Below, piece after piece: positions 4,526 to 61,556 of a stretch of 64,000 nt of DNA. The position numbers were made by a program, and so were the translations under genes. The notes below the pieces were generated by a model. The model ran no database searches. It had not been told where the DNA came from and saw nothing but the letters and a program-made list of their open reading frames with translations. Each line of letters opens with the position of its first letter. Positions within the stretch are counted from its first letter, which is position 1. Source of the DNA: Pseudoalteromonas sp. XMcav2-N (GTDB taxonomy: Bacteria; Pseudomonadota; Gammaproteobacteria; Enterobacterales; Alteromonadaceae); NCBI RefSeq assembly GCF_024124545.1, contig NZ_JAMXSF010000008.1, forward strand, positions 1 through 64,000. The letters are read 5' to 3'.

Positions 4526-4527
4526 AA

Positions 4528-5292
4528 GTGACAGATAATCCCTGGGAAGTGCTGGGCATTGACCCCGGTGCCGATAAAAAGACCATAAAACGTGCCTACA
4601 CAAGTAAGCTTAAGTTATGTAAACCCGATGAAGACCCTGAGGGGTTTCAACAACTGCGTGCGGCCTACGATGCAGCTTTAGCTTATCTGGATGAGCAACC
4701 ACAGCAACGTGTGAAACTGGGCTCAACAGATGAGCTGCACAACCAGCCTGACACACAGGCTGAACCAGAGGCTGCGCCCCCAGCCACTTTACCCGTGGCA
4801 CCGGAGCAACCCGATTTTTCCGGTCCGGAACAACACGAAAGCAATGTTGAGCCGAGCTTACCTGCTAACAATCAGGAAATGCAGGAGTTTGAAGCAGAAC
4901 TGGCGGAGCTGCTGGATAACTCCTATCGCCGCAATCAGCAAGGCGCCTGGCAGTTACTGATTGAGCACCCTGCCTGCGTGGATGTGCAAAACCGTCGAGC
5001 GGCCTCGCACCGGATATTTTACGCCATACTGAACTATCAAAAGTCGGAGCGAGCAGAGGTCACTCCACTGGATATAGAAGTCCTGGTATTTTTGAACCTG
5101 CACTTTGACTGGGCGGAAGATCAGGAGCTGGAGGAGCGGGTGGGTCATCCCGACTTTTACAACATGACCCATAAAGAGATGCCAGAACCAGAAATTCGTA
5201 TTGAGCCGGTTGGTGACACCAGCAACATTGCTAATCTGTTTATCGGTCTGACCATTCTCTGTGCTCTGGGCCTGATCATGATTTCTATCTAA
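4528..5292 (+). CDS. Tail-anchored J-domain-like co-chaperone (DjlC-like partner of HscC)
   Basis: 254 residues. Residues 3-50 form a J-like domain (WEVLGIDPGADKKTIKRAY) followed by PDEDPEGFQQLRAAYDAA. The usual HPD tripeptide reads KPD here, so the His thought essential for Hsp70 stimulation is replaced. A Pro/Glu/Gln-rich linker spans about 70-115, then a helical middle region, and one hydrophobic segment (NIANLFIGLTILCALGLIMI) ends the protein. That predicts a C-terminal membrane anchor with the J domain in the cytoplasm. GTG 4528 uses ggtgag at the end of hscC, so the two are probably translated together. The stop overlaps that of the convergent BASS gene by 4 bp. Confidence 0.82.
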   Translation: MTDNPWEVLGIDPGADKKTIKRAYTSKLKLCKPDEDPEGFQQLRAAYDAALAYLDEQPQQRVKLGSTDELHNQPDTQAEPEAAPPATLPVAPEQPDFSGPEQHESNVEPSLPANNQEMQEFEAELAELLDNSYRRNQQGAWQLLIEHPACVDVQNRRAASHRIFYAILNYQKSERAEVTPLDIEVLVFLNLHFDWAEDQELEERVGHPDFYNMTHKEMPEPEIRIEPVGDTSNIANLFIGLTILCALGLIMISI

Positions 5293-6245
5293 GCATCCGG
5301 CACTTCATGTGGCTGCTGGGCTGGTAGAGGTTGAGCGCCAGTGCTGCGCTTTCGCCACCAGGCAGCCAGCACCGAACCACTGACATTGTGCCAAATCGAA
5401 AACAAAGTCCCGGCCAGCGCGCTGGCCGGGGCAAAAAACTTCATCGCCAGCGCAACCGCCAGACCCGAGTTTTGTAACCCCACTTCAAGTGCTATCGTTC
5501 GGCAACTTTTTTCAGGTAAACCCAGCTGTCTGGCAACCAGGTACCCAAGTGACAACCCTGTCGTATTGTGCAGCACCACAGCCAACGCCACAATTGGCCC
5601 TATGGTTGGCAAGGTAGCAGCATTTAACGCCACCACAATCGCGATGATCAGCACGATAGCAGCCACGGAAAACAGGGGTAATAACGGTGTGAGTCTTTTC
5701 ACTGCCGTGCTGAAAAAATGATTGATCAACACGCCTGCCAGTACCGGGAACAACACGATTTTGAGTAAGTTCAGCATCATTCCGGCCAGCGGAATATCCA
5801 CCACCTGACCGGCCAGTAACTCAACCAGCAAGGGAGTCAGGATCACACCAGCCAAGGTACTTATGGCTGTCATGGAAATAGATAAAGCGACATCGCCTTT
5901 GGCCAGAAAACACATCACATTGCTGGCCGTGCCTCCGGCGACACACCCAACCAGCACCATGCCCAGAGTCAGATCAGCATCAAACTGAAACAACATAGCA
6001 ATCAACAGGGCCACCACCGGCATCACGCTAAACTGCAATAAAAGCCCAGTAAGCACAGCTTTAGGCTGGCTTAGAACATGGCGAAAGTCTCCAGGTGTCA
6101 GGGTTAATCCCATGGTCAGCATAATGAACGCCAGCAGAGGAATAATGGCGGCCTTTAATGAGACAAATGGCGCCGGTAAATAAAACGCACACACACTTAG
6201 TGCAATGGCCCAAACGGGGAACAGTTGAATGACAAGACGCAGCAT
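5289..6245 (-). CDS. Bile acid:sodium symporter (BASS) family transporter
   Basis: About 318 residues with 9-10 hydrophobic segments. The MLTMGLTLTPGDF stretch, the CVAGGTASNVMCFLAKGD motif in the middle and LEVGLQNSGLAVAL near the C terminus are typical of the SBF/BASS family, which imports organic anions with Na+ across the inner membrane. ATG 6245 gives the normal N terminus MLRLVIQLFPVW; a TTG at 6269 is possible but less likely. It is divergent from the CadC-like regulator, with about 140 bp between starts. The real substrate (bile acid, pyruvate, pantoate or other) cannot be read from the sequence. Confidence 0.9.
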   Translation of the reverse strand: MLRLVIQLFPVWAIALSVCAFYLPAPFVSLKAAIIPLLAFIMLTMGLTLTPGDFRHVLSQPKAVLTGLLLQFSVMPVVALLIAMLFQFDADLTLGMVLVGCVAGGTASNVMCFLAKGDVALSISMTAISTLAGVILTPLLVELLAGQVVDIPLAGMMLNLLKIVLFPVLAGVLINHFFSTAVKRLTPLLPLFSVAAIVLIIAIVVALNAATLPTIGPIVALAVVLHNTTGLSLGYLVARQLGLPEKSCRTIALEVGLQNSGLAVALAMKFFAPASALAGTLFSIWHNVSGSVLAAWWRKRSTGAQPLPAQQPHEVPDA

Positions 6246-6385
6246 AGTAAGCGCTCGGTTTGAAAGCAAAAGTGTCTTTGTTATACCTTATTCGCAAGCG
6301 AAAACAAATCCTGCCACTGTACTCGTTTTTTCTCATCTTTATGATAAGGTTAGGCCTATATTGTGGACATTCCCGAAGGACTGAT

Positions 6386-7360
6386 ATGGCCGAGTACCGC
6401 TTTTTATCATACCGTTTCGACTGCCAGACCTATACGCTTAAGCAAGGAAAACAGACGCTGGAACTGCGCCCAAAAGCCGCCCAGGTGTTAGGCTATCTGT
6501 TACAACATGCCAATACTCTTGTCACCAAACAGCAGATCATTGAAGCGGTCTGGGGCCATACCTATGTACAAGACCACCGTTTATTTCAGCTGATCAGCGA
6601 GCTCAGAAAGCTGGCACCTGAGCAGGAATTGATCCGCACCTACCCAAATCAGGGTTACTGCTGGCAGGTAAAGACCAAACGAGTGTCGACTCGTCCAATG
6701 CGCCAGCTAGCGGCTCTGGCGGCCTCAGTGGTATTGTCTCTGGGTACAGTCAGCACCGCCTATCTAAACAGTCAGCATAGTGCAACTACAACACCAACCT
6801 TTCTGCCCGCGCTGACGGCTTATCACAAGGCCATCATTGCCTTTGAGCAACAGGACTACGCACACGCACAGCAATGGCTGACATTCAGTCTTCAGGAAAA
6901 CCCGGACTCAATCGAAGCTCAGTTACTGATGGCTGAAACCCTGCTGCAACTCAAAGACACTGCACAGGCACAACATTATGCCAATAATGTTGTTAAACAT
7001 ACTTTGGCCAATAGCTATTATTTTTCTCAGGCATCCGACGTGCTGAGCCGTCTATCTGCCAGCCAGGCCCGATTTACTGAAGCACTGGATTTTGCCATTC
7101 AGGGACAACAGGCTATAGATGAACGGGCAATTTGCAGTGCTGTGGTCATGCAACAGCGGATCGCCGACTTGATCCTGGCGCAACCCACACCTTTACACTC
7201 ACCCAAATTACAAAACGCTACGGTACAACTGGTCACAACACCAGACTCACACCCGCAGCAGGCGACCCTGTGCAAGCAGCTTACCCAACCGGGACCGACC
7301 TCTATGCGGTTATGTCCTGCAAACCATGACGTTCAGACAAGTCGCGAGAGATTTGCTTAA
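6386..7360 (+). CDS. CadC-like membrane-anchored winged-helix regulator
   Basis: 324 residues. Residues 1-100 form an OmpR/CadC-type winged helix (LELRPKAAQVLGYLL, TKQQIIEAVWG, LISELRKLA, IRTYPNQGYCW). One membrane segment lies at about 107-127, then a periplasmic part of about 195 residues with TPR-like helices (FEQQDYAHAQQWL, AEAQLLMAE-type spacing). ToxR/CadC proteins bind DNA while anchored in the inner membrane and sense periplasmic signals. The frame extends upstream to 6260, but ATG 6386 has gaagga at 6375-6380. It is divergent from the BASS transporter and upstream of a DsbC-like gene; either could be a target. Confidence 0.86.
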   Translation: MAEYRFLSYRFDCQTYTLKQGKQTLELRPKAAQVLGYLLQHANTLVTKQQIIEAVWGHTYVQDHRLFQLISELRKLAPEQELIRTYPNQGYCWQVKTKRVSTRPMRQLAALAASVVLSLGTVSTAYLNSQHSATTTPTFLPALTAYHKAIIAFEQQDYAHAQQWLTFSLQENPDSIEAQLLMAETLLQLKDTAQAQHYANNVVKHTLANSYYFSQASDVLSRLSASQARFTEALDFAIQGQQAIDERAICSAVVMQQRIADLILAQPTPLHSPKLQNATVQLVTTPDSHPQQATLCKQLTQPGPTSMRLCPANHDVQTSRERFA

Positions 7361-7478
7361 GCTGCTGATCTTATTAGTTTGATAGAATATTATAGGTAGC
7401 TTAAGACGAATTTATAAGCCCTGTGTGGCAGCACACGTTATAACCGGTGTAATCTAATCACAACCGGAAATCATCACT

Positions 7479-8234
7479 ATGAATTTGTCTTGTAAGTTTT
7501 CTACTTTACTGCTTGGGACTGCCCTGCTAAGCGCCCCACCTCTGGCTGCTCAGTCCCAAAGCCCAGCCTCTGCGGCACCAGTGACCCAAATGGAAAAAGC
7601 AAAAAATAAATTGCGGGCACTGACGGGGACAGACATTGATTTTGACCTGCACCCCTACTCGGACGACTTCTATCGTCTCACCCTGGGCAATGAACACTTG
7701 CTGCTGTCAAAAGATGGCAACTACCTGTTCAGTGGTCGTGTCATCGATGTGCGTAACCGGGTGGATCATATTGCCAAAATACAGCAAATCGCCAACCAGC
7801 AGAACATGGCTAACATCCCTTATGAGCAACTACTTACTTACCCGGCAAACAATGAGCAATATAGTATTACTGTGTTTACCGATATCGACTGTCCTTATTG
7901 TCGTAAGTTCCATAAAGAGTTGCCTGGATTGAATCAGCTGGGTGTCACCGTCCATTACGTTATGATCCCCAGAGGTCGCGCAGGCAGTCCAGCCTACGAG
8001 AAAACAGCAGCAACGCTTTGTGCTAAAAGGCCTAACGAGGCAATGGACGCAGCCATGCGCAGCACGCCAACCCCAACTCAAAACGCAGCGTGTAAACACT
8101 CACTGGATACCCAGGTCGCACTGGCCAGGCAATTTGGCTTTCAGTCCACGCCAACCATTTTGCTACCAAATGGGGAAGCGTTACCTGGCTACGTCCCGGC
8201 CAAAGAGCTCGTCGCCAGACTGGAAAAGTTATAG
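7479..8234 (+). CDS. Periplasmic thiol:disulfide isomerase, DsbC-like
   Basis: 251 residues with a signal peptide ending near AAQSQ (residues 1-26). The N-terminal part resembles the DsbC dimerisation domain (LLLSKDGNYLFSGRVIDV). The thioredoxin-fold part has the active site CPYC near residue 137, a second Cys pair (LCAKRP and AACKHS) and the cis-Pro loop STPTILLPNG. DsbC/DsbG proteins repair wrong disulfides in the periplasm and are kept reduced by DsbD. Start ATG 7479, after ccggaaa. About 120 bp separate it from the CadC-like gene, so it probably has its own promoter. It may be a second DsbC paralogue, as no recJ neighbour is present. Confidence 0.86.
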   Translation: MNLSCKFSTLLLGTALLSAPPLAAQSQSPASAAPVTQMEKAKNKLRALTGTDIDFDLHPYSDDFYRLTLGNEHLLLSKDGNYLFSGRVIDVRNRVDHIAKIQQIANQQNMANIPYEQLLTYPANNEQYSITVFTDIDCPYCRKFHKELPGLNQLGVTVHYVMIPRGRAGSPAYEKTAATLCAKRPNEAMDAAMRSTPTPTQNAACKHSLDTQVALARQFGFQSTPTILLPNGEALPGYVPAKELVARLEKL

Positions 8235-8371
8235 AGTAGCCCATTGCGACTGAGTGAAAGTATCTGTAATTGGCAATCTGCCGAAGACGGGTTATTATTC
8301 AAACATTCATAATAGCCCTTCGCCTCTCACTCTCGGCGCGAAATTATGCGGGTAGTATTGCTGGACGTTCG

Positions 8372-10603
8372 ATGCTAAAGATGCGCTTAAATTGCCTGGT
8401 CAGGCCACAAATTTACAGGGTAATTCTCTGTACCTTGATAGGCTTCCTGATGTGTATATCGTCAGCACATGCCTTTTCCATTACAGAGGCACGACAAAAG
8501 CTTGATAATGCGCATACAATAAAAAGTTCCGCCCCCCAGTCAGCCATTATACTATTGACCCAGCTGGCGGATGAACCCACCCTGCAGACTCACCCGGCTG
8601 AGTACTATGATACCCTGGTGACGCTGGCACACACCTTGATTAGTCAAGGCGATTACAACAAAGCACAACAACGCAGCGAGCAACTACAAAGTTTCGCTGT
8701 TACACAAAACAATGCATACCATCATGCTTATTCTTTTTTGCTGTTAGGCTTTATTGCAGATAACCAGAGTCAGTTTGAGCAGGCACAGGCCTACTATAAC
8801 GATGCGCTGGAGACCTCGATAGACGCAAACGACAATGAAATGATAGCGCAATCTTATGAGCGAATTTCCGCAGTGCTGCGCAGACAAGACAAGTATATCG
8901 AAGCATTAAAAGTAGCCCAGAAATCGATTAATGTTCTGAGCATTTTGGGTGAGACTGAAGTTTACGTAAAAGCCTTGGTCAACCTTGGAATTATTCAAAC
9001 TGCACTAGGCGATCATGAGAGTGCGCTTGATACCTTTACCCGTTCTTTTGAGCTCAGTCGTGAGTTAAGTTTTGATAAAGGCATTGCCGACTCCATTTAT
9101 GAGTCGGGCGTGGTATATCAGAGGATGGAAAACTACCCTGCGGCGCTAAAGCACTTCAAGATGGCGCATGAGCTAGATGAAAAATCAGGCAACCTGATGG
9201 ACATAGGCAACAGTGCTATGCGTAGCGGTTTTATGGCGCTGGAAACGGGCGACCTCAAAGAGGCCGAGCATTTTGCCAAAAAATCCGAGCGATTATATCT
9301 TCAGGTTGATTCAAAAAGCGGTCTGACCCGTAGCTATAATCTGCAAGCTCGAATCGCTTTGGCATCCGAGCAGTTAGCACTTGCCAGTGACTACGTAGCG
9401 CGCTCGTTAGAGATTGCCAATGCCTACAATCTGACAGGGTATCTGGTGGCATCGCAGCTCACTCAGGCAAACATTGCGGCAGCTCAACAAGATCATGAAA
9501 CCACGTTACAACTGGCCCATGCTGCGCTCGATACCGCAACACGCATCAACGACAAAGATGGGCAGATCAAATCCTACAAACTCTTGTCAGATACCTATCA
9601 AACCATTGAAGATCCACAAAAAGCGCTGGATTCTCATCTCAGATACACCCAACTCAGAGATGAACTGGGCAACAGCCAGCACAATTTAACTCTGGCGGCA
9701 TTACAAAGTCGGGTTGAATTCATCCGCAAGCAACAAGAAATCGAAACACTGAATCTCGACAAAGCCTTAAAAGACACCCAGCTGAGGGAACGGGAGTGGC
9801 AGCTCAAGGCCTGGTGGTTCGGCACCGCGGGGGTTTTTATGCTGGTTCTGGCCATCGTTTACCGGCAAATAAAAAAGCGCAAACTGGCCGCGGAGCGGGC
9901 AACACTATTACAGGAAGTCGTGGATAAAAAGAATGCAATGCTGGCGGATGTGTCCCATGAGATCCGCACACCACTGACCGCCTTACAGTTACAGGTTGAG
10001 GCGTTACAATTCAACATCGCTCAGGATGTAGACGCCTCTTACAACACCATCAATCGTAAGCTGTCGGATATCAACCGTCTTATTTCAGACATACACCAGC
10101 TGGCGATGGCCGACTCACAAACTTTACATCTAAATCTGGTGCAATGTAACCTGACCGAAGTGATGACACTGTGGGAGCAGGAGTTTGCTCTGTTTACGCA
10201 CGGCAAAGGCTTTGACTGGGAAGCCCAGATTCAGCTCACTGGTGAGATCACGGTCAGCTGGGATGTCGATCGCATCAAGCAGGTGCTCACGAACTTAATC
10301 GCCAACAGTACTTTATACACAGATAAGCCAGGTAAACAACGGCTTACGGTCTGGCAGCAGCAAAAACACATCCACATTACTCTGGAAGATACCGCACCCG
10401 GTGTTGCAGGTGAGCACCTGAGTGAGATATTCGAGCGGCTCTTCAGGGTAGAAAAGTCTCGCAGCCGTCGCACCGGCGGTTCTGGTTTGGGCCTGGCGAT
10501 TTGCAAAAGCCTGATTGAAGCGCATCAGGGCACCATTTATGCCCAGCACAGTGAGCTGGGCGGGTTGAAAATGGTGATAAGACTGCCTCTGGCAGTAGGC
10601 TAA
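8372..10603 (+). CDS. TPR-containing membrane sensor histidine kinase (orphan)
   Basis: About 743 residues. A signal-type hydrophobic segment ending SSAHAFS is followed by some 400 residues of TPR-like helical repeats facing the periplasm, a coiled-coil stretch, one membrane segment (WWFGTAGVFMLVLAIVYR), a HisKA domain with the phospho-accepting His in ADVSHEIRTPLTALQ, and an HATPase domain ending RTGGSGLGLAICKSL. The frame opens at 8270, but ATG 8372 (or ATG 8381) gives the signal sequence at the N terminus; neither has a strong ribosome site. No response regulator lies beside it, so its partner is elsewhere. Its stop overlaps the convergent monooxygenase-like gene. Confidence 0.86.
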   Translation: MLKMRLNCLVRPQIYRVILCTLIGFLMCISSAHAFSITEARQKLDNAHTIKSSAPQSAIILLTQLADEPTLQTHPAEYYDTLVTLAHTLISQGDYNKAQQRSEQLQSFAVTQNNAYHHAYSFLLLGFIADNQSQFEQAQAYYNDALETSIDANDNEMIAQSYERISAVLRRQDKYIEALKVAQKSINVLSILGETEVYVKALVNLGIIQTALGDHESALDTFTRSFELSRELSFDKGIADSIYESGVVYQRMENYPAALKHFKMAHELDEKSGNLMDIGNSAMRSGFMALETGDLKEAEHFAKKSERLYLQVDSKSGLTRSYNLQARIALASEQLALASDYVARSLEIANAYNLTGYLVASQLTQANIAAAQQDHETTLQLAHAALDTATRINDKDGQIKSYKLLSDTYQTIEDPQKALDSHLRYTQLRDELGNSQHNLTLAALQSRVEFIRKQQEIETLNLDKALKDTQLREREWQLKAWWFGTAGVFMLVLAIVYRQIKKRKLAAERATLLQEVVDKKNAMLADVSHEIRTPLTALQLQVEALQFNIAQDVDASYNTINRKLSDINRLISDIHQLAMADSQTLHLNLVQCNLTEVMTLWEQEFALFTHGKGFDWEAQIQLTGEITVSWDVDRIKQVLTNLIANSTLYTDKPGKQRLTVWQQQKHIHITLEDTAPGVAGEHLSEIFERLFRVEKSRSRRTGGSGLGLAICKSLIEAHQGTIYAQHSELGGLKMVIRLPLAVG

Positions 10604-10920
10604 GGCACCTGTTTCCGGTCATGGCTGCCGTAATCGCGCGCTACCGCAGCCACGCGAATGCGGTAATGCTCAAAGATGTGCTCCCGCCCCTGTTGCTGGG
10701 CAGCTCGGTGTTCTTCTTGCGTTCGCCATTGCTGCACTGCCGTCTCATCCCGCCAGAACGAGAGTGACAGTAACCGGCCGGAGTCGCTCAGGCTTTGATA
10801 CCTTTCTATGGATATAAACCCGTCTATTTCTTGCAGTTTGGTTTTTAGGTCAGCCGCAACATCCAGATAAATCTGCCGCTTGTCTCTGTGCGGGGTAACT
10901 TCAAAAATAACGGCTATCAC
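10600..10920 (-). CDS. Antibiotic biosynthesis monooxygenase (ABM) domain protein
   Basis: 106 residues; a small ferredoxin-like ABM-fold protein. The pattern [13 protein letters not shown] then [17 protein letters not shown] and [11 protein letters not shown] is typical of the family, which includes cofactor-free quinol oxygenases and haem-degrading enzymes. GTG 10920 has agggag upstream and overlaps the previous gene's stop as GTGA, so translation is coupled to the NIPSNAP-family gene. No metal- or haem-binding residue can be identified with confidence, so the function may be oxidation of a small aromatic or a binding role. Confidence 0.83.
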
Positions 10921-53260: not shown

Positions 53261-54055
53261 TTAAAACTGAGCGACAAACTTTAAGCTGGTCTCTTCACCG
53301 GCATCACGGTCAATGTATTCGACAGTCAGATAGTAGCTGTCGTTAAAGAAGTACTTACCCTGCAACGCCAAATCAGAGTCATAAGAGCCAACGCCTACAG
53401 CAATGTTGCGGTTAAAGTAGTAATTTACCAGGGCATTATTGTACGAGACATCTGTGTAACCTAAATCGATCTCATGGTGAGATACATCCACGCTGATGTA
53501 ACGCTCTGCATCCAGGTGCATAAAGTAGCGGCCAGATACTGTGTAGTTGTCCATCTCATCATCTGTATCAATTGTTACACCTAAATAGTCGGTGTCATTG
53601 AGCTGATGATTATACTCAGCTTTTAACCAAGTGCTGTCGGCACCCAGGTCAGATTCATTACGACGAATACTCAGCTTCAGCTTGTCGTTGTACAGATACC
53701 CGATCCCGTAAGTATAATGATCGTCTATTTCACCCAGGTCACTGACTTGACCAACCACGAATACTTCTTTGCTGAAGTATCCCTCACCGGCAAAAGAAAA
53801 GCGGTTCATATACTCATCGTTGTAGTAACTCAGGCCCACATTGCTGTCCGTATCCAGGTAACCATAATCATCCCAAACACCTGAGTTCTGTTGCGGAGCA
53901 AAGAAATAACGGCTGCTTAGCATCAACGCATCGTTATCAAAGGTACGGTCCTGATCAGTATAGGTTGCACTGTTAAACCATTGCTTGGTCTCTGTGGCAT
54001 GAGCGGATGTGGCGGTAATAACGGCGAGTGCCGCAAGTGTGAGTAGCTTTTTCAT
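53261..54055 (-). CDS. Putative outer-membrane porin
   Basis: 264 residues. Signal peptide MKKLLTLAALAVITATSAHA. The mature protein is made of alternating amphipathic strands rich in Tyr and Asp (YSFAGEGYFSKEVFVVGQVS-type, NYYFNRNIAVGVGSYD, YFFNDSYYLTVEYID) and ends in Phe, the usual signal for beta-barrel insertion. It resembles the putative-porin family found in this group. Small size suggests 10-14 strands. The solute is unknown. It is divergent from creB, with a short inverted repeat near 54091-54108. Confidence 0.8.
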   Translation of the reverse strand: MKKLLTLAALAVITATSAHATETKQWFNSATYTDQDRTFDNDALMLSSRYFFAPQQNSGVWDDYGYLDTDSNVGLSYYNDEYMNRFSFAGEGYFSKEVFVVGQVSDLGEIDDHYTYGIGYLYNDKLKLSIRRNESDLGADSTWLKAEYNHQLNDTDYLGVTIDTDDEMDNYTVSGRYFMHLDAERYISVDVSHHEIDLGYTDVSYNNALVNYYFNRNIAVGVGSYDSDLALQGKYFFNDSYYLTVEYIDRDAGEETSLKFVAQF

Positions 54056-54226
54056 AAAAACCCTTTATTTCCATATAGTAAAGCGGTATAGCTCACAACT
54101 TAGTGAGCGCCGCGCATAGTATAGAGACTTAACTGAACGTGCAATGACTTTTTCAGTGTTTTACCGTTTTTTGCTTTACGGGTAATATGTTAGGTGACTC
54201 TTTGCACAAACAGACAACGACAACAT

Positions 54227-54898
54227 ATGAGCATAGTGATAATTGAAGACGAACCTGCGATTGCCGATACGCTGGTTCATATTCTGGAGATGGACGGGTT
54301 TGACGTACATTGGTTTACCACCGCTGGCGCCGGGCTGGAGTACTTACAACAACAAACTGCAGACTTAGTGATCCTGGATGTTGGCTTGCCCGATGGCAAT
54401 GGTTTTGACTTATGTAAACAACTGCGCCAGTTTTCTGCGATGCCCATTATCTTTTTAACCGCACGGGGTGACGAAATCGACCGCGTGGTAGGTCTTGAAA
54501 TTGGTGCAGATGATTATGTCACTAAACCTTTTAGTCCAAGAGAAATGCTCGCACGGGTGAAGCTCAGATTAAGAAAACTCCAGCCTGCTACCACGACTAC
54601 ACCCGTTCAATCGGTAAAGAAATGGGAGGCTAAAAACTTTGATTATTACTATCAAGGAATGGCGCTGGGGTTAACTGCACTTGAGTTTAAAGTAGCTCAT
54701 GCCCTGATCACACACTCACCAAATGTGCTAAGCCGAGCACAGCTGCTGGATGCCACTCAAGCCCCGGCAGATTGCGGTTATGAGCGAAATATTGACAGCC
54801 ATATCAAAGCAATACGAATAAAAATGAAACAATTAGGCTGTTCTGAATCGTTAAAAACTAAGCGCGGATTTGGTTATTACTTCGAGGAGTTTGTGTGA
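54227..54898 (+). CDS. creB: Response regulator CreB
   Basis: 223 residues, OmpR class. Receiver: IIEDEPAIADTL, phospho-acceptor in DLVILDVGLPDG, FLTARGDE and YVTKPF. The winged helix follows (LGLTALEFKVAHALI, ERNIDSHIKAIRIKMK, LKTKRGFGYYF). The following creC and creD-type genes fix the name. CreBC responds to growth on fermentable carbon and, in several gammaproteobacteria, influences beta-lactamase expression. The frame opens at 54194; ATG 54227 starts the receiver. Confidence 0.92.
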   Translation: MSIVIIEDEPAIADTLVHILEMDGFDVHWFTTAGAGLEYLQQQTADLVILDVGLPDGNGFDLCKQLRQFSAMPIIFLTARGDEIDRVVGLEIGADDYVTKPFSPREMLARVKLRLRKLQPATTTTPVQSVKKWEAKNFDYYYQGMALGLTALEFKVAHALITHSPNVLSRAQLLDATQAPADCGYERNIDSHIKAIRIKMKQLGCSESLKTKRGFGYYFEEFV

Positions 54899-56343
54899 AG
54901 TCACTACACTGGCCTCGCATCCCTCTGGGGCTGAGGTTTTTCTTTCTATACCTCATCATGGTACTACTGACGACCTATGTGATCAGCAACACTATGTTGC
55001 GTGAAATTAAACCCACCATTCGACAAGCCACAGAAGAAACGCTGGTGGATATGGCCAACTTATTATCTGTTGTTGTGGCGGAAGATTTAGCCCGGGGGAG
55101 CGCTGACAATAGCCGGCTGGTGGAATTAATGCGGGTATATGGGCAACGCAAAGTGGATGCCGCAATCTGGGCAATAGAAAAAACCAACATGTCGCACCGC
55201 ATTTACCTCACCGATCACAACGGCATTGTGGTTGCCGACTCCTGGCAAAAAGACGTCGGCAGTGACTTTTCTCAGTGGAATGATGTCTATCTGACATTGC
55301 GCGGTGAGTACGGTGCGCGCTCAAGTGCCACCGACCCGAAGGATCCTTTATCAACCGTCATGCATGTTGCCGCACCTGTGATATATCAAGGTAAGATCAT
55401 CGGCAGCCTCACCGTTGCCAAAGCCAATCGTTCTGTTCAGCCATTTATCGAGCACAGCCAGCAGCGGATCTTAAAATGGCTCGGCCTGCTGAGTTTACTG
55501 GCCCTGCTGATAGGTGCCCTGATCGCCTGGCGCGTCAATTCCGCAGTCACAAAGCTGGCTGAATACGCCAGAAAAATGGGCCTGGGTAAACAGGCCGCGA
55601 AACCCCAGTTTCGGATCTTCTACGAATATCGTCAACTGAGTGACGCCTTAGAACAGATGCGAAACCAGCTCGACGGCAAAGTGTATATCGAGCAGTATAT
55701 AGAAACGCTCACCCACGAACTAAAAAGTCCGCTTTCTGGTATCAAGGGCGCCAGTGAACTATTACAGATGCCCCTGAGCGAGGACAAGCGCCAGCAGTTT
55801 GCAGGTAATATAGAGCGAGAAACGCTCCGTATGCAGCAACTGATTGATAAATTGCTCGAGCTGGCCCGGCTGGAGCAATTACCTGCTCTGAACACTCGAC
55901 AAACGGTGCCGATTGCGCCCCTGCTCGAAAAATGTGAGCAAATACTTACAAACCGACTAATACAAAAGTCTGCCACCTTCAGTACCTCGTGCAGTCAAAT
56001 AACAAGCGTCAATGGCGATCCATTCCTGTTACAGCAAGCCTTGCTAAACCTGCTTGAAAACGCACTGGACTTCGTCACACCACAGGGCGAAATCCGCCTG
56101 TCCGTCACACACAGCAGCGACACCTGCACATTCAGCATTTATAACACGGGCCCGGCAATTCCGGATTATGCCCTGCCCAGGTTATGTGAACGGTTTTATT
56201 CCCTGGCACGCGCGAATGGAACAAAAAGTACCGGGCTGGGCCTCAACTTTGTCGAAAGAGTTGCCAGACTACATCAGGGGAAGCTGGCTATCAGTAATCA
56301 TGAGCAGGGAGTCATGGCTACCTTCACCATAAAATCACCATAA
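54895..56343 (+). CDS. creC: Sensor histidine kinase CreC
   Basis: 482 residues. Two membrane helices (about 10-28 and 190-212) enclose a periplasmic sensor with VVADSWQKDVGSDFSQW, a CreC-typical stretch. HisKA has the phosphorylated His in LTHELKSPLSGIKGAS, and HATPase has NLLENALDF and TKSTGLGLNFVERVA. GTG 54895 overlaps the creB stop as GTGTGA, with gaggag upstream, so translation is coupled. Confidence 0.93.
   Translation: MKSLHWPRIPLGLRFFFLYLIMVLLTTYVISNTMLREIKPTIRQATEETLVDMANLLSVVVAEDLARGSADNSRLVELMRVYGQRKVDAAIWAIEKTNMSHRIYLTDHNGIVVADSWQKDVGSDFSQWNDVYLTLRGEYGARSSATDPKDPLSTVMHVAAPVIYQGKIIGSLTVAKANRSVQPFIEHSQQRILKWLGLLSLLALLIGALIAWRVNSAVTKLAEYARKMGLGKQAAKPQFRIFYEYRQLSDALEQMRNQLDGKVYIEQYIETLTHELKSPLSGIKGASELLQMPLSEDKRQQFAGNIERETLRMQQLIDKLLELARLEQLPALNTRQTVPIAPLLEKCEQILTNRLIQKSATFSTSCSQITSVNGDPFLLQQALLNLLENALDFVTPQGEIRLSVTHSSDTCTFSIYNTGPAIPDYALPRLCERFYSLARANGTKSTGLGLNFVERVARLHQGKLAISNHEQGVMATFTIKSP
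56323..56338 (+). promoter_or_regulatory. Candidate cre tag upstream of creD
   Basis: ttcac-cataaa-atcac matches the CreB-binding consensus TTCAC-N6-TTCAC with one mismatch in the second half. It lies in the last codons of creC, about 83 bp before creD, as in known CreB-activated creD promoters. Confidence 0.5.
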
Positions 56344-56420
56344 GATCCCCACATAAGCGCCATTTAAACACCAATCAGCTCGGTTAGCCTGTATCTGCAT
56401 CAGGTTTAACCGAGACACTT

Positions 56421-57752
56421 ATGACACAACAAATTACAGAAAAAACCGGGATTAAATTAGCCATCATCGCCGCAATCATCGTATTGCTGATGATCCCCAT
56501 CGCCATGATCAGCGACCTAATCGACGAGCGATCATCCACTCAGCACAAGGTGCAACAGGAAATAGCCCGCAGCACCAGTGGCACCCAATCTTTAATAGCA
56601 CCATTTCTTTACGCCGAATACGAAGTCACCAAGATAATCGACGGCGTGCAAACACCGCAAAAGCATCGCCATGTCATACTTCCTGAACAGTTGACGGTAT
56701 CGGGCACGCTAGACACCTTTGAAAAATACCGCAGCATCTACAAAGCACAGCTATATCGCGCAGACTTAAAGCTGACAGGCCATTTTGATAAGCAAAAATT
56801 GCATGATTTAACTCAGCTACCGTTGACCCGCCTGAGCATGGTAATGGGGATCAGTGATATCCGGGGGATTGGCCAAAATACACAGATCTCGATAAACGGC
56901 CAGACACACACACTTGTACCGGGGACCACACTTAACTCAATTGACGAGGGCGTGCATATTCCACTGACTCTGGCAGAACTGGAGCAGACAGCTGTGACAT
57001 TTGATATCCAACTGCACTTGCAAGGCATGAGCACTTTGGCTGTCGCGCCCCTGGGAGTGCACACTCAGGTCTCGCTCGAAGCCAACTGGCCACACCCCAG
57101 TTTTCAGGGGGATTATCTGCCCGTTCGCTCTGATATCAGTGACACTCACTTTAGTGCCAGCTGGGAAACCAGCTACTTTGCGACCAATATGAAAGAACTT
57201 TTCTCACGTTGTCTCTTTGGCAACCAATGTGAAGCATTAGAAGCACGTAATATGGGCGTGTGCCTGGTGGACCCGGTCGATCATTACCTTAAGAGTCATC
57301 GCGCCACCAACTATGCCCTGCTGGTGATTATTCTGGTGATGTCGAGCTTCTTTTTGCTGGAACTGAGTAAATCCAAAGCCATCCACCCGGTACAATATGG
57401 CTTTGTCGGCTTATCTTTGGCGGTTTTTTACTTGTTGCTGATTTCTCTGAGCGAACACATAGGATTTGCCTGGGCCTATACCCTATCCGCACTGGCGGCA
57501 ATTACATTGCTTGTGAGCTACATTTGGGGGATCCTGCAAAGTGCACAACTGAGTATCAGTTATTTTGCCGGACTCAGTGCATTGTATGCCATGCTCTATG
57601 CCATGCTGAGTGCTGAACACTATGCTTTGCTCATGGGCAGCCTCGTTTGTTTTGCTGTACTTGCAGTTGTCATGCTCGCAACCCGGCATGTTAACTGGTA
57701 CGGTGCCGCCAAGGTGTCTGCCAGACCAAACTCTGAAGCATCGCCTCAATAA
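56421..57752 (+). CDS. creD: Inner membrane protein CreD
   Basis: 443 residues. One N-terminal helix (LAIIAAIIVLLMIPIAMI), a large periplasmic domain (DERSSTQHKVQQEIARSTSG, AQLYRADLKLTGHF) and four to five C-terminal helices (HPVQYGFVGLSLAVFYLLLISLSEHIGFAWAY region). This matches CreD, whose gene is strongly induced by CreBC; its molecular role is unknown, with links to envelope and beta-lactam responses. Separated from creC by 77 bp holding a candidate cre tag region. Confidence 0.93.
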   Translation: MTQQITEKTGIKLAIIAAIIVLLMIPIAMISDLIDERSSTQHKVQQEIARSTSGTQSLIAPFLYAEYEVTKIIDGVQTPQKHRHVILPEQLTVSGTLDTFEKYRSIYKAQLYRADLKLTGHFDKQKLHDLTQLPLTRLSMVMGISDIRGIGQNTQISINGQTHTLVPGTTLNSIDEGVHIPLTLAELEQTAVTFDIQLHLQGMSTLAVAPLGVHTQVSLEANWPHPSFQGDYLPVRSDISDTHFSASWETSYFATNMKELFSRCLFGNQCEALEARNMGVCLVDPVDHYLKSHRATNYALLVIILVMSSFFLLELSKSKAIHPVQYGFVGLSLAVFYLLLISLSEHIGFAWAYTLSALAAITLLVSYIWGILQSAQLSISYFAGLSALYAMLYAMLSAEHYALLMGSLVCFAVLAVVMLATRHVNWYGAAKVSARPNSEASPQ

Positions 57753-58011: not shown

Positions 58012-59862
58012 ATGCGCCATTTTACACGTGCGATGTTAGCCGGTGCGATGCTAACCATGCTGTCGGGTTGTGAACTCGGCAGTAATGACGATGCACAAAG
58101 CAATATTGCCATCACCAAAGTATCTACAGGTCCGCTTGAAACGCTGGAACCGAATACAACGGTGACGGTCTTCTACGAGGTTGATATCACCGGCTTTAAG
58201 GATATTGACGTCGACGTACACTTTTATCTGGTACACGCAGCTGAGCTGGATACCTCAGATGGCGAAGAAGCCGAAATTGAAGAAGTGCACAAAGTTGGCG
58301 CATTGGAGTTAACGCAGGTATCTGAGGGCAGCCACAACTTTCAAACCGACATTACCATTCCAGACACACTATTGGGTGGTCACTATCATCTGATAGCACA
58401 AATAGACCCTCATGATGACCATGTTGAAGACATCGAAGACGACAACCACCCATCGGTAGATCATGAGCCATTTGCGGATGGCGACTTTCCGTTTGCCGAT
58501 GTACATGTACGCGTCTTAGAAAGTCACGACTACAAACTCGTCAGTGCTGCATTTGGTCAGGAGGCGCTGATCCTGGATGTGCCCAACACCAATGACGGTA
58601 CCAGTGAGCATCATTCCGATCTGGTCGGCTATCTGAGCGCGGATTACGAAGGTTCGAACCTGGGTAGTACCGCTATCACAGCAGAAGTGTTGGTAAACGG
58701 CAACTGGCAACCAACCCATTTCTGGAATGCCGAAAATACCGCTTACGAGGCGCAGCTAACCCATAACTTTACTGCCGGCTTGCACGATGAGCACATTGGT
58801 TTTGACATTGCCCTGGATGACGCCCTGCTGAGCCAGATTTATCAGGGTTATGACGCCACTCAGGGGCAGTCTTTGCAAGTTCGCTTTACTTTAACAGATC
58901 TGGCGCAAAATGCAGAGACCATCACAGACAACAATGTGATCGAAACTGAGATCCCTTTGTACTTCTTTACCGCAGAAAACACAGACACAGAGCAAAGCCT
59001 GGCAAAACGTGATGCCCAGTATTCAGTGGGTCTGGCGAACATCAAATTAGAAAAAGAATTTGATAAATCTTACGGCGATAAATCAAAATTCAGTGTCGGC
59101 GTTGACTTAAGCGGCCAGCTGTTTATTGTACCGACCGGCGATCCGGGCGGGCGCATTGCCGGCGAAGGCGTGGTCGAAGCCTACTTCTTTAACGCGCAAA
59201 ATACCTTGTTCAGTATTTCCTATGACGGCAGTGCCTATATCAGTGGGCAAAACACCGGCTATGCATCGGAAATGATCATCTTCAATAACGTTGCGTTTGA
59301 GGATGAGAAGTACACCACGAAATACGAAAAATCCTGGGAGAAATCCTGGGAAGAGGAAAAAGTGCTGGCCCAGGCTCGCTTTACCATAGGTCCGGTTCCT
59401 ATGAGTGTTGAAGCTGGTGTCACTGGTAACCTGGGTTTTGAACTCACTGTAGGCTACAACGCAGAGCTCTATGCTGAAGGTGACTTGTTCCATGTCGATT
59501 TTGGCGCCTTCGGCCGTGGCGGTGTTAACCTGGGTCTGGTCTCAGCCGGTATCCAGGCGATTTTGACCTTAATCGACAACACTTTTGCCATGGAGTCTAA
59601 TGCAGGCTTTGCTCTGGTCTCAACCGGTAACAAAGCGCCGCACATTTATTATGGTATTGAACTGAAGAACGACCTGGATGTGATCTCTGGTAAATTTGGT
59701 TTATACGCCGAAACCATTGGGGTCAAGTGGTGTAAGAAATGGGGTATTCCTTATCCTTGTGGTAAGAAAACTCACCGTTACGACCTGTGGCTATACCAAA
59801 CGCCAAGCGTATATAACAAATCCTGGACTCTGTACTCCAAAGAGGACGAAATCGAACTATGA
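58012..59862 (+). CDS. Large beta-rich lipoprotein coupled to the LLTP-like gene
   Basis: 616 residues. Lipobox LSGC with Cys20. Residues 25-330 look like three Ig/CARDB-type beta domains (LEPNTTVTVFYEVDITGF, LLGGHYHLIAQIDP, LVGYLSADYEGSNLGSTA). A His/Asp-rich patch lies at about 128-160. From about 335 the pattern changes to long amphipathic strands (GPVPMSVEAGVTGNLGFEL, GGVNLGLVSAGIQAILTLID, GIELKNDLDVISGKFGLY), ending with two Cys (WCKKWGIPYPCGKK). The C-terminal part could form a large open sheet. ATG 58012 has aggaaat. Its stop overlaps the next start as ATGA. Family not recognised; a partner role with the following protein in lipid handling is inference. Confidence 0.72.
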   Translation: MRHFTRAMLAGAMLTMLSGCELGSNDDAQSNIAITKVSTGPLETLEPNTTVTVFYEVDITGFKDIDVDVHFYLVHAAELDTSDGEEAEIEEVHKVGALELTQVSEGSHNFQTDITIPDTLLGGHYHLIAQIDPHDDHVEDIEDDNHPSVDHEPFADGDFPFADVHVRVLESHDYKLVSAAFGQEALILDVPNTNDGTSEHHSDLVGYLSADYEGSNLGSTAITAEVLVNGNWQPTHFWNAENTAYEAQLTHNFTAGLHDEHIGFDIALDDALLSQIYQGYDATQGQSLQVRFTLTDLAQNAETITDNNVIETEIPLYFFTAENTDTEQSLAKRDAQYSVGLANIKLEKEFDKSYGDKSKFSVGVDLSGQLFIVPTGDPGGRIAGEGVVEAYFFNAQNTLFSISYDGSAYISGQNTGYASEMIIFNNVAFEDEKYTTKYEKSWEKSWEEEKVLAQARFTIGPVPMSVEAGVTGNLGFELTVGYNAELYAEGDLFHVDFGAFGRGGVNLGLVSAGIQAILTLIDNTFAMESNAGFALVSTGNKAPHIYYGIELKNDLDVISGKFGLYAETIGVKWCKKWGIPYPCGKKTHRYDLWLYQTPSVYNKSWTLYSKEDEIEL

Positions 59863-61556
59863 CCTTGTGTCGATTGACTCTGCTTGCTGCGCCCTGGGTG
59901 GCGCTGACAAGCACTCAGGTAATGGCTGGCACACTCTGCCAGCCACAATACCGGTTTGATATCCAAACCCAGACTTCCTTTGATTATATTAAGCTGCAAA
60001 GTGCCCCGCAAACGTCGACGGTGCACTTGCAGGGCAAGCTGTCGCTTAAAGCGGCGCAAAAAGGCGAAGAGAAAAACTGGTGGGCCATCAAGGCCGATCA
60101 GGTTGCTGCCATTCAGGGTAAAACGCAGATCCCCCTGCCCAGTTATGAGCATGCCTTTGCCTTTAAATTAACGGACAAAGGGCTTATCAGCGACTTCTAC
60201 TTTGCCGGTGAGCTCGACCAGCAGACCCAGGACAAGCTCAAAGGGCTAGCTTATTATCTGCAATATCAACGTGATATCAGTCAGGTAAGCAAAGAGCCCG
60301 ACACTCTGGGGCAGTATCAACCAGCATATCAACAAACTGGTAAACAGTTAAAAATGGTCAAACAGCACTATAGCGACTTTGACCGTACTCAGCTTGCCAC
60401 TTTTAACCGTATTGAGGTGCTCGACTCCGCCCACCTCATTACGCCCTCAGCTTGCTTTATTAAACACAGAGAAGGTCAGGAAGCCCTCGCTCTGACAGGC
60501 ACAGATCTGCGCTTTGGTTCACAACAAAGCTATACGCTGACACTGGCCCCTCAGCCATTTAAGAGTACTTTATACGAGCTGGACAACGACCTGGCGGCTT
60601 GGCAGACAACTGAGGCAGAACTCAGTGACGCTGAGAAAGCACGGCTGGCGGCTGAGCTAAACCAGTTGATTACCACGCAAGATATTACTCAGATAGACGC
60701 CCATACCCTGTCTATTCTGCTGCAAAAATACAATGCTGTGATTGGCACTCTGGCGCCGCTCATACTCTCGGGGGAGTTAAACGATAAAGCTCAGATGCGC
60801 CTGTTCAATGCACTAGGACAACTCGACTCGGATACCAGCCAGCAATTACTTAGCCAGTTATTACTGGCTGAAAAGCAACCTTTAACTCAGTTTCGTGCGC
60901 TGCGCGCGCTGACTCAGGGCAATGCCCCCTTGTCACAGCAGGCTGCGGACATGCTATTGGGGATGCTGACCGATGGTTTTAGTACTCTTGACTCAGAAGT
61001 CGAATCCAGTTTCTACATGACATTGGGGATCTTGCTCAACAATCGTAGCGGATCTGACACAGCCACACAGTTAAGTCTGGCCATTACTGAACAGATCACG
61101 CTGGGTGAAAGTGAAGGCAAAACGGCCAGTCTGCTCACCGCATTGGGGAACAGTCGCGACCCGCAGCATGAGCCATTGCTCGCAGCTCACTTGTCTGACA
61201 ACAGCGCCCGTATTGAGAAAGCTTCTATCCGTGCGCTGGGCATGATGAAAACCGACACGGCTTATCAAAACCTGGAACAGCACTTCTTCAAGTCGCCTGA
61301 GCGTAATAAAAAAGCGCTGCTCAGTGCCCTGGGGAATTATCAGATGAGTGCGAAAACCAGTGATACCGTGCTGAATATGGCGGTCAGTGATCAGGACGAC
61401 GCCGTTCGCCTGGCCGCTATCAAAGCCTTAGCAACTCAAAAGCAAAAAGACGGTATAAAACCCATACTGCGTCAGGCACTGCAAAACGAGACCTCGCGGC
61501 GAAACTTTAAGGCCATCATAAAACTGCTACACAGCAAAGAAGAAAAGGCGCAATAG
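59859..61556 (+). CDS. Periplasmic protein resembling the vitellogenin/MTP N-terminal module
   Basis: 565 residues. Signal peptide to about VMAG (residue 24). Residues 25-220 form a beta-rich region, then about 340 residues of helical hairpins with HEAT-type repeats near the end (LLTALGNSRDP, IRALGMMKTDTAYQNLEQHF, DDAVRLAAIKALATQ). The order (beta barrel then helical superhelix) and motifs DKGLISDFYF (106-115), KLKGLAYYLQY (126-136) and EPDTLGQYQPAY (146-157) recall the lipoprotein N-terminal domain of eukaryotic large lipid transfer proteins, where a G-x-I/V-x-x-Y/F strand, an N-I-K-R-x-L-x-x-L helix and E-x-D-x-x-G-x-C-x-x-x-Y occur in that order. It overlaps the preceding lipoprotein gene by ATGA. 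The assignment is from pattern only; a plain HEAT-repeat protein is the alternative. Confidence 0.7.
   Translation: MTLCRLTLLAAPWVALTSTQVMAGTLCQPQYRFDIQTQTSFDYIKLQSAPQTSTVHLQGKLSLKAAQKGEEKNWWAIKADQVAAIQGKTQIPLPSYEHAFAFKLTDKGLISDFYFAGELDQQTQDKLKGLAYYLQYQRDISQVSKEPDTLGQYQPAYQQTGKQLKMVKQHYSDFDRTQLATFNRIEVLDSAHLITPSACFIKHREGQEALALTGTDLRFGSQQSYTLTLAPQPFKSTLYELDNDLAAWQTTEAELSDAEKARLAAELNQLITTQDITQIDAHTLSILLQKYNAVIGTLAPLILSGELNDKAQMRLFNALGQLDSDTSQQLLSQLLLAEKQPLTQFRALRALTQGNAPLSQQAADMLLGMLTDGFSTLDSEVESSFYMTLGILLNNRSGSDTATQLSLAITEQITLGESEGKTASLLTALGNSRDPQHEPLLAAHLSDNSARIEKASIRALGMMKTDTAYQNLEQHFFKSPERNKKALLSALGNYQMSAKTSDTVLNMAVSDQDDAVRLAAIKALATQKQKDGIKPILRQALQNETSRRNFKAIIKLLHSKEEKAQ

Follow-up and report, generated by a model that had tools for sequence, protein, structure and literature searches.

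The window analysed here, a stretch of 64,000 nucleotides from Pseudoalteromonas sp. XMcav2-N, encodes two adjacent genes, A and B, the second of which belongs to a family that is homologous, on the evidence of profile comparisons, to the N-terminal module of the large lipid transfer proteins (LLTPs) over its N-sheet as well as its helical domain. The coupled A-B pair is real and widely conserved, and it suggests a bacterial two-protein version of the animal lipid carrier. We lean towards the explanation that B is a bacterial LLT-module member working with A, and that the pair carries or loads lipid between membranes; the two-protein carrier and its binding of lipid are what we infer from these data.

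Gene A (ORF, 58012..59862, + strand) encodes a 616-aa predicted lipoprotein that is the conserved upstream partner of B, and gene B (59859..61556, + strand) encodes a 565-aa exported protein of the Vitellogenin_N type (N-sheet and helical domain). As the initial annotation had noticed, the genes are coupled by an ATGA overlap (59859..59862, +), in which the stop codon TGA of A occupies 59860-59862 and the start codon ATG of B 59859-59861. A clear match to A-C, the beta-rich C-terminal domain of A (residues 326-616; 58987..59859, +), immediately precedes B at 40 of the 42 distinct loci, another class included, so that the co-occurrence which the annotation proposed to survey is established. The exceptions are L059, where no upstream A-C match was found, and L058, where the only HMM match is insignificant. 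Further locus surveys found the pairing independently. A proteins start at about 600 aa and reach at least 2600 aa, while B homologues keep to about 505-675 aa; PD40, Laminin_G_3 and PA14 domains occur in the giant A proteins of L118 and L120. The window also holds creBCD-like genes directly upstream of A. These neighbours were found at none of the other loci among the 14 listed and therefore lie outside the module, as far as these 14 loci go.

The N-terminus of A, MRHFTRAMLAGAMLTMLSGC, was judged by eye and is presumably a lipoprotein-type signal under the usual lipobox rule (LSGC lipobox, C20; 58012..58071, +), in line with the large lipoprotein described initially; by the +2 rule we take the protein to be an outer-membrane lipoprotein. 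Its N-terminal region (residues 31-320; 58102..58971, +) consists of predicted Ig-like beta domains: AlphaFold2 places strands there (pLDDT block means 34-82), and Foldseek matches the A model to generic Ig/FnIII-type proteins. The Pfam scan of A returned no family above cut-off, and CARDB was matched in one A homologue below its cut-off (E 7.8e-4, 20 bits against 22.7). A-C is the part common to distant A proteins, with profile matches in those of L095, L096, L097, L067 and L118-L125. AlphaFold2 did not resolve its fold (pLDDT <50 over residues 321-616). The long amphipathic strands attributed to the C-terminal half of A received weak support: its beta-moment, taken at 170 degrees, is raised (z 2.5), but about as much as that of the N-terminal half (z 2.4), so that this test does not distinguish the two halves. 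The C-domains of eight A homologues gave z values of 0.5 to 4.1. Six A C-domains had no Pfam match near any cut-off, and A-C did not match PF09172. Nor did profiles match A-C to the C-terminal regions of MTP and apoB; this test has low power because those two regions likewise miss each other. Of the proposed split lipid carrier, the LLTP character of B and the conserved pairing stood, but a sequence link between A-C and the LLTP C-sheets was not found.

The architecture of B agrees with the beta-rich N-terminal part followed by HEAT helices that had been read from its sequence. Its N-domain (residues 25-240; 59931..60578, +) is identified by profile-profile comparison as a homologue of the LLTP N-sheet, and the helical HEAT-type domain (residues 257-565; 60627..61553, +) by HEAT_2, AlphaFold2 and the LLTP alignment. 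Judged by eye, the N-terminus of B is a Sec-type signal, whereas many distant homologues begin with a hydrophobic segment resembling an inner-membrane anchor. AlphaFold2, run with five close sequences (the window and four loci), places strands within residues 43-115 and a helix at 121-143, all at low confidence, and then 19 helices from residue 257 onward (pLDDT block means mostly 65-93). The single-chain predictions suggested initially thus gave the helices of B, but left most of its N-domain and the C-half of A unmodelled. HEAT_2 (PF13646) is matched in window B over cut-off (E 4.9e-19, 68.8 bits). The protein ends after the helical domain, and C-terminal lipid-cavity sheets are absent from the same chain.

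The three motifs said to occur in LLTP order could be aligned in register with MTP. Motif 1 (DKGLISDFYF, residues 106-115; 60174..60203, +) aligns to HGKVKEFYSY of MTP, motif 2 (KLKGLAYYLQY, residues 126-136; 60234..60266, +), within the predicted low-confidence helix 121-143, aligns to NIKRGLASLFQ, and motif 3 (EPDTLGQYQPAY, residues 146-157; 60294..60329, +) aligns to EVDISGNCKVTYQ. The alignment is ungapped from motif 1 to 2, with a one-residue length difference between 2 and 3. By this sequence correspondence, motif 2 is the counterpart of the LLTP NIKRG helix and motif 3 that of ExDxxGxCxxxY. G151 and Y153 of B are invariant in the 14-sequence alignments; across 23 aligned bacterial proteins the motif 3 Gly occurs in all and the Tyr in 21. 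The conserved Cys of ExDxxGxC is replaced by Tyr in 21/23 of these proteins, window B among them, and is present in 0/23.

Profile-profile comparison provides the main evidence for homology. The B profile built from 23 sequences matched the combined MTP, apoB and lipovitellin set at 98.0% (hhalign, E 1.7e-13, 455 columns) and that built from 14 sequences at 96.4%, while a generic bacterial HEAT profile (16 proteins) reached 1.0% against the same set. This result, with the Pfam matches of homologues given below, upholds the placement of the B family with the LLTP N-terminal module, N-sheet and helical domain. When helical domains were compared with each other, B matched the LLTP set at 94.0% (apoB alone 80.3, MTP alone 8.0, lipovitellin alone 9.9) and the generic HEAT control gave 1.2%. 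For the N-domain profile, none of 300 column permutations did as well against lipovitellin, MTP or the LLTP N set; its scores with lipovitellin (32.4) and MTP (26.9) exceed those of 243 of 244 other proteins, the sole higher one being a B member. The apoB N-domain did not match the B profile (0.1%). Proteins from outside the gammaproteobacteria (non-gamma) matched the window B family at 99.9% over 544 columns, and their N-domains at 97.9%. Their profile alone, made of four close sequences, reached 42.7% against the LLTP set and 0.2-1.6% against single LLTPs, a weak result of the kind that thin profiles give. Bacterial B proteins taken one at a time gave mostly noise against the LLTP set (0.2-40.6%; window B 7.9%).

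Searches of the PDB with the B and N-domain profiles found no LLTP at E up to 10, and those with single proteins returned HEAT proteins, unrelated weak matches or nothing, again no LLTP. As a benchmark, phmmer with MTP missed lipovitellin and apoB at E up to 10, and with apoB found lipovitellin (E 1.6e-10). No relative turned up in two scans of viral contigs that used single B proteins, and a scan of the class with window B as sole query retrieved only one genome (G032) besides its own among 321.

The search with Vitellogenin_N (PF01347; profile length 590, curated cut-off 24 bits) that the initial annotation had recommended succeeded in homologues but not in window B itself, which had no match at E up to 1, nor did its N-domain at E up to 10. 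The cut-off was passed by four distant B homologues. The B protein of L118 scored 51.7 bits (E 7.5e-14) in a single stretch, residues 161-614 aligning to positions 79-567 of 590; that of L121 scored 55.5 bits in two stretches, that of L119 53.2 bits, and the B gene of L120 36.3 bits. Also above the cut-off within the B family were L122 (29.9 bits) and L058 (30.2 bits). In alignment A2, only 2 of 14 members gave a PF01347 match at E up to 10. With the HEAT part removed, it was the top Pfam match in four of four non-gamma homologues, once over cut-off, the matches starting at profile positions 75-79 (E 8.7e-6 to 0.023); N-fragments of four gamma homologues had no PF01347 match. In control genomes the family was matched in 2 of 14 at E up to 0.01, over cut-off in one, and where genomes had PF01347 matches, B-family genes were matched in 8 of 10.

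Among the best 50 of 1346 Foldseek rows for the B model, MTP stands at ranks 8, 16 and 25 (613-653 columns), is the highest-ranked natural protein and has the highest query-normalised TM-score (TMq), but lipovitellin, which the comparison was also meant to include, is absent from these 50, as is apoB; the N-domain of the model is weak. HEAT/ARM proteins such as alphaRep and importin fill most of these rows.

Their dominance, the HEAT_2 assignment and the PF01347 matches in control genomes would fit a generic HEAT protein fused to an unrelated beta domain, its likeness to LLTPs being convergent. We regard this as very improbable. HEAT membership is true as well, yet it leaves the N-domain unexplained: the N-sheet and the helical domain were both matched, rather than generic HEAT repeats with an unmatched beta region, the N-domain matches LLTPs alone and in the same order, and B-family genes account for most of the genomes matched by PF01347. 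A reading of B as HEAT only is contradicted by the N-domain match and the HEAT control.

In the mechanism that we favour, B would be exported to the periplasm, going by the signal seen by eye, and would consist of an N-sheet that surrounds the KxKG helix and, after it, a HEAT-type helical superhelix, as in the vitellogenin/MTP/apoB lineage. A, encoded just upstream and in the window translationally coupled to B, would work together with it, as a lipoprotein here and as a probable giant surface-type protein in another class. A-C most likely docks on the helical arc of B, replacing the animal C- and A-sheets, and the pair may form a hydrophobic cavity that could carry or load lipid between membranes, with both cargo and direction presumed. 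A fuller version, in which A-C supplies the lipid-lining sheets of a split LLTP that ferries lipid across the envelope, and the bacterial two-protein system is the ancestor of animal vitellogenin, MTP and apoB or has a common origin with them, is put forward tentatively. Somewhat unlikely, though sharing the same view of B, is an MTP-like chaperone model, in which B does not make up half of a cavity and acts in the periplasm as a loading factor, folding or lipidating A as its client during export in the way that MTP does with apoB. The top rank of MTP, the anchor-like start of many homologues and the variable size of A beside a steady B are expected of a client and its dedicated loader; against it, the C-terminal sheets completing the lipid cavity of MTP are missing from B, and A-C is the constant part of A, suggesting a constant binding partner. 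That B has an LLT fold which has lost its lipid function and now serves as a scaffold or tether of the surface protein A, with a part in, say, adhesion or the integrity of the envelope, seems improbable to us. The domains of the giant A proteins are typical of surface binding, and the Ig-like half of window A and its creBCD-like neighbours point the same way, but these neighbours are not kept at other loci listed, and the N-sheet motifs and two-domain layout persist over large distances, which fits a retained ancestral use.

The LLTP superfamily is described in animals by the papers found, for instance PMC1783640. No paper on bacterial members was found among the literature matches listed; Pfam/InterPro may already contain uncommented bacterial PF01347 matches. 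A relative in bacteria with N-sheet, helical domain and partner gene would add a bacterial branch to the family, making the origin of MTP, apoB and vitellogenin a testable question. A-B would provide a small two-part model of a protein class with a central part in yolk and blood lipids, and it points to an envelope system, so far unstudied, in Pseudoalteromonas and other proteobacteria.

Lipid handling in the bacterial envelope involves bridge proteins of the AsmA/TamB/VPS13 type and the Lol and Mla carriers, which resemble A-B in its proposed role and are not among the reported matches. ApoB, one giant chain that contains lipid-binding strands of its own, resembles B in the helical domain (apoB-100, hhalign 82.3%) and differs in its unmatched N-domain. 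Lipovitellin matches the N-domain at 94.9% (B profile columns 72-190 to lipovitellin 15-142), but vitellogenin, an animal yolk protein that has C- and A-sheets in its one chain, has Cys in GxC where B has Tyr. The large subunit of MTP is matched at 94.8%, with the same succession of N-sheet and helical domain and its motifs in register. In MTP the C-terminal lipid-binding sheets belong to the one chain, and its partner is PDI; B, in contrast, stops at the end of the helical domain, with A encoded next to it.

The initial annotation described a coupled gene pair joined by an ATGA overlap. Both open reading frames, A (58012-59862, 616 residues) and B (59859-61556, 565 residues), are present on the forward strand of the window, which lies in a 5.7 Mb genome, and ATGA is common to the end of A and the start of B. 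By eye, the start of A reads as a lipoprotein signal (lipobox LSGC) and that of B as a Sec-type signal. In Pfam, no family exceeds its cut-off in A, and B matches HEAT_2 (E 4.9e-19); in NCBIfam, A has no match and those of B all lie far below their cut-offs. The closest named relatives of B are from Pseudoalteromonas rubra and Pseudoalteromonas sp. (87-92% identical). Directly upstream of A, at 54194-57752, lies a creBCD-like set encoding a response regulator, a histidine kinase, and CreD (E 1.8e-138), with a Porin_7 gene on the opposite strand to it at 53261-54055.

The two genes occur together far beyond the window. B is present in 18 of the 79 genomes of relatives, own included, in 26 copies, all with an A-type sequence directly upstream (26/26). 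In eight of the 18 there are two copies, the second sharing 26-29% identity with the query. When A was the query, 12 of 60 relatives were positive, and B was also present in all 12. A paralogous second type of A-B pair (L064, L069, L063, L070), with a B about 27% identical to that of the window, occurs in several Pseudoalteromonas, and 8 of the 18 B-bearing genomes carry two pairs. Across the class, 23 of 369 genomes match the B profile, 18 of them over HEAT positions only; the other five match most or all of it (own, G032, which was already part of that profile, G010, G137, and G423, at 206-576 here and full-length in the scan of G137's order). The frames directly upstream of B in G010, G137, and G423 match an A profile of 12 sequences, all from the window's order (E 3e-17, 4e-18, and 8e-8). 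In the phylum, 8 of 349 genomes match, including four new full-length proteins from outside the class (G468, G505, G563, and G579), and 7 of 54 match in G137's order, one as a fragment.

The part common to distant A proteins is the C-terminal domain of A, hereafter A-C. At all eight new loci examined with their surroundings, the upstream frame, in one case cut by a contig end, matches an A-C profile of 13 sequences (E 2e-12 to 1e-53). A ninth region, L126, has only a HEAT match in a 1,198-residue frame. The census comprised 45 loci, of which 42 are distinct (L029, L030, and L031 are contigs of L003, L004, and L005), and 40 of the 42 have a clear A-C match upstream of B (E 8e-28 or better, same strand, at most 150 bases from the B frame). 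At L058 the upstream frame gives only an insignificant HMM match (E 6; hhalign 27.7, next-best 20.5), and at L059 there is no A-C match upstream. Members of a profile match it by construction; the independent evidence of pairing is that from G010, G137, and G423 and from the eight new loci. The genes beyond the pair differ among 14 loci, except between close relatives (L066/L071 and L063/L070). The survey of co-occurrence shows that the A-B pair is a conserved module.

Some loci have features of their own. L059 carries a divergent B member (7917-9431; hhalign 98.7% to the family) beside a 400-residue protein with an export-type start (9721-10920), possibly a minimal or replaced partner. At L060, a lipoprotein-like third gene follows the pair (5046-6107); its met-zincin/reprolysin-like peptidase signature is weak and does not reach the cut-offs. 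A CRISPR-like array (L119:10647-12078, in G505; 61-base period, 23 copies found) lies about 1.5 kb from the pair.

The second gene, B, had been likened to the N-terminal modules of vitellogenin, MTP, and apoB, which are large lipid transfer proteins (LLTPs), and profile-profile comparisons support this. Against MTP, apoB, and lipovitellin together, a B profile of 14 sequences scores 96.4% (E 1.1e-9, 446 columns) and one of 23 sequences 98.0% (E 1.7e-13, 455 columns), the E-values being for one comparison. A control profile from 16 generic HEAT proteins of bacteria reaches 98% against B but 1.0% against this set. Against single LLTPs, the 14-sequence profile scores 92.1% (MTP), 86.3% (lipovitellin), and 73.4% (apoB). 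Single sequences of known LLTPs give 2.0% (MTP-apoB), 55.9% (MTP-lipovitellin), and 96.5% (apoB-lipovitellin); the B score is within this range, though B has the advantage of being a profile. Single B proteins score 0.2-40.6% against the set. The N-domain of B alone scores 14.5% against the set (lipovitellin 39.2%, MTP 12.2%, apoB 0.1%), known LLTP N-domain pairs score 4.9, 14.7, and 86.3%, and in six comparisons the N-domain scores were each time above those of all 300 column permutations. Among 244 other proteins the best N-domain score is 36.9, from L059, itself a B member, and the next 22.6, against 32.4 for lipovitellin and 26.9 for MTP. In an unfiltered hmmsearch of 6,003 sequences, lipovitellin ranks second and MTP third, behind one shuffle; apoB is not among the hits.

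The Pfam family Vitellogenin_N (PF01347, cut-off 24 bits) matches distant B homologues: L058 (30.2 bits), L122 (29.9), L119 (53.2), L121 (55.5, split over two stretches), and L118 (51.7, residues 161-614 aligning as a single stretch to profile positions 79-567 of 590). It does not match the window's B, from whose hits it is absent at E up to 1. It is the best Pfam hit of the N-domain alone in the four non-gammaproteobacterial homologues, starting at profile 75-79 (L118, E 0.023; L119, 0.0034; L120, 0.0078; L121, 8.7e-6, the one passing the cut-off); the N-domain fragments of L122, L123, L124, L096, and the window's B give no PF01347 hit. The non-gammaproteobacterial homologues matched by PF01347 align with the window's family over 544 columns at 99.9%, and their N-domains do so at 97.9%. 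With E up to 10 allowed, PF01347 hits two of the 14 members of the family alignment. Genome scans with PF01347 gave matches in 3 of 60 relatives at E up to 0.01 and, at E up to 1e-4, in 4 of 274 genomes of the class and 3 of 48 of G468's class. The first pass of the last scan missed G468, though its protein scores 51.7 bits. The matching gene belongs to the B family in 8 of the 10 genomes. L100, a frame of about 800 residues resembling by eye the generic HEAT proteins of the class B-profile scan, and L101, matching in a 277-residue frame, were counted outside it. Two of 14 control genomes matched in the scan of relatives, one over the cut-off, and none in the other two scans. The B family belongs with the LLTP N-terminal module. 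Among the open-licence PMC papers listed we found no report of bacterial relatives of vitellogenin, LLTPs, or MTP, and passages of PMC3538542 and PMC9648973 describe no bacterial LLTP members.

The three motifs said to occur in matching order are found in register with MTP in the aligned N-domains: the bacterial GxIxxFxF, QxxLKxLxxxFQ, and ExDxxGxYxxxY correspond to GKVKEFYSY, IENIKRGLASLFQ, and EVDISGNCKVTY, with a one-residue difference in spacing before the last. An AlphaFold2 model of B from five close sequences (mean pLDDT 58.9) is good in the helical domain and poor in much of residues 1-254. In the proposed Foldseek comparison, run against the PDB, designed HEAT proteins rank first. Among the best 50 of 1,346 matches, MTP chains take places 8, 16, and 25 (E 9.6e-5 to 4.9e-4) and have both the longest alignments (613-653 columns) and the highest TMq (0.38-0.40); lipovitellin and apoB are absent from these 50. 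The overall rmsd to MTP is large (18-19) because the modelled N-domain is unreliable.

In the AlphaFold2 model of A, the N-terminal half forms Ig-like beta domains and the C-terminal half has no resolved structure. A-C is C-terminal in A proteins of about 600-840 residues, central in the 1,204-residue protein of L067, and at about residues 785-1170 in those of at least 2,290. These giant partners (L118:39-7205, L119:14-7084, L120:8159-15976, and L121:30-6911) have at least 2,294-2,606 residues, lower bounds since three start near the edge of the examined stretch; in the two scanned, L118 and L120, PD40 propeller, Laminin_G_3, and PA14 domains surround A-C. The L067 protein (3826-7437) has no lipobox by eye and shows weak beta/gamma-crystallin-like matches, below cut-off, after A-C. 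No match of A-C to the C-terminal sheets of LLTPs came up, but the C-terminal regions of MTP and apoB also fail to detect each other in this test, so the negative speaks neither for nor against a split LLTP.

In animals, the LLT module docks to beta-sheets lining a lipid cavity. A nearly always adjoins B, is beta-rich, is predicted from its start to be exported, usually with a lipobox, and has a constant C-terminal domain. The simplest reading is that A-C replaces the LLTP sheets and that the pair would hold lipid or move it between the membranes. The main rival takes B and A as loader and client, like MTP to apoB. Since the two readings partly share one view of B, their odds need not add up to one. 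If A-C does replace the sheets, it would do so by a putative docking on B, which, compared with the animal LLTPs, has the LLT module and ends before the sheets.
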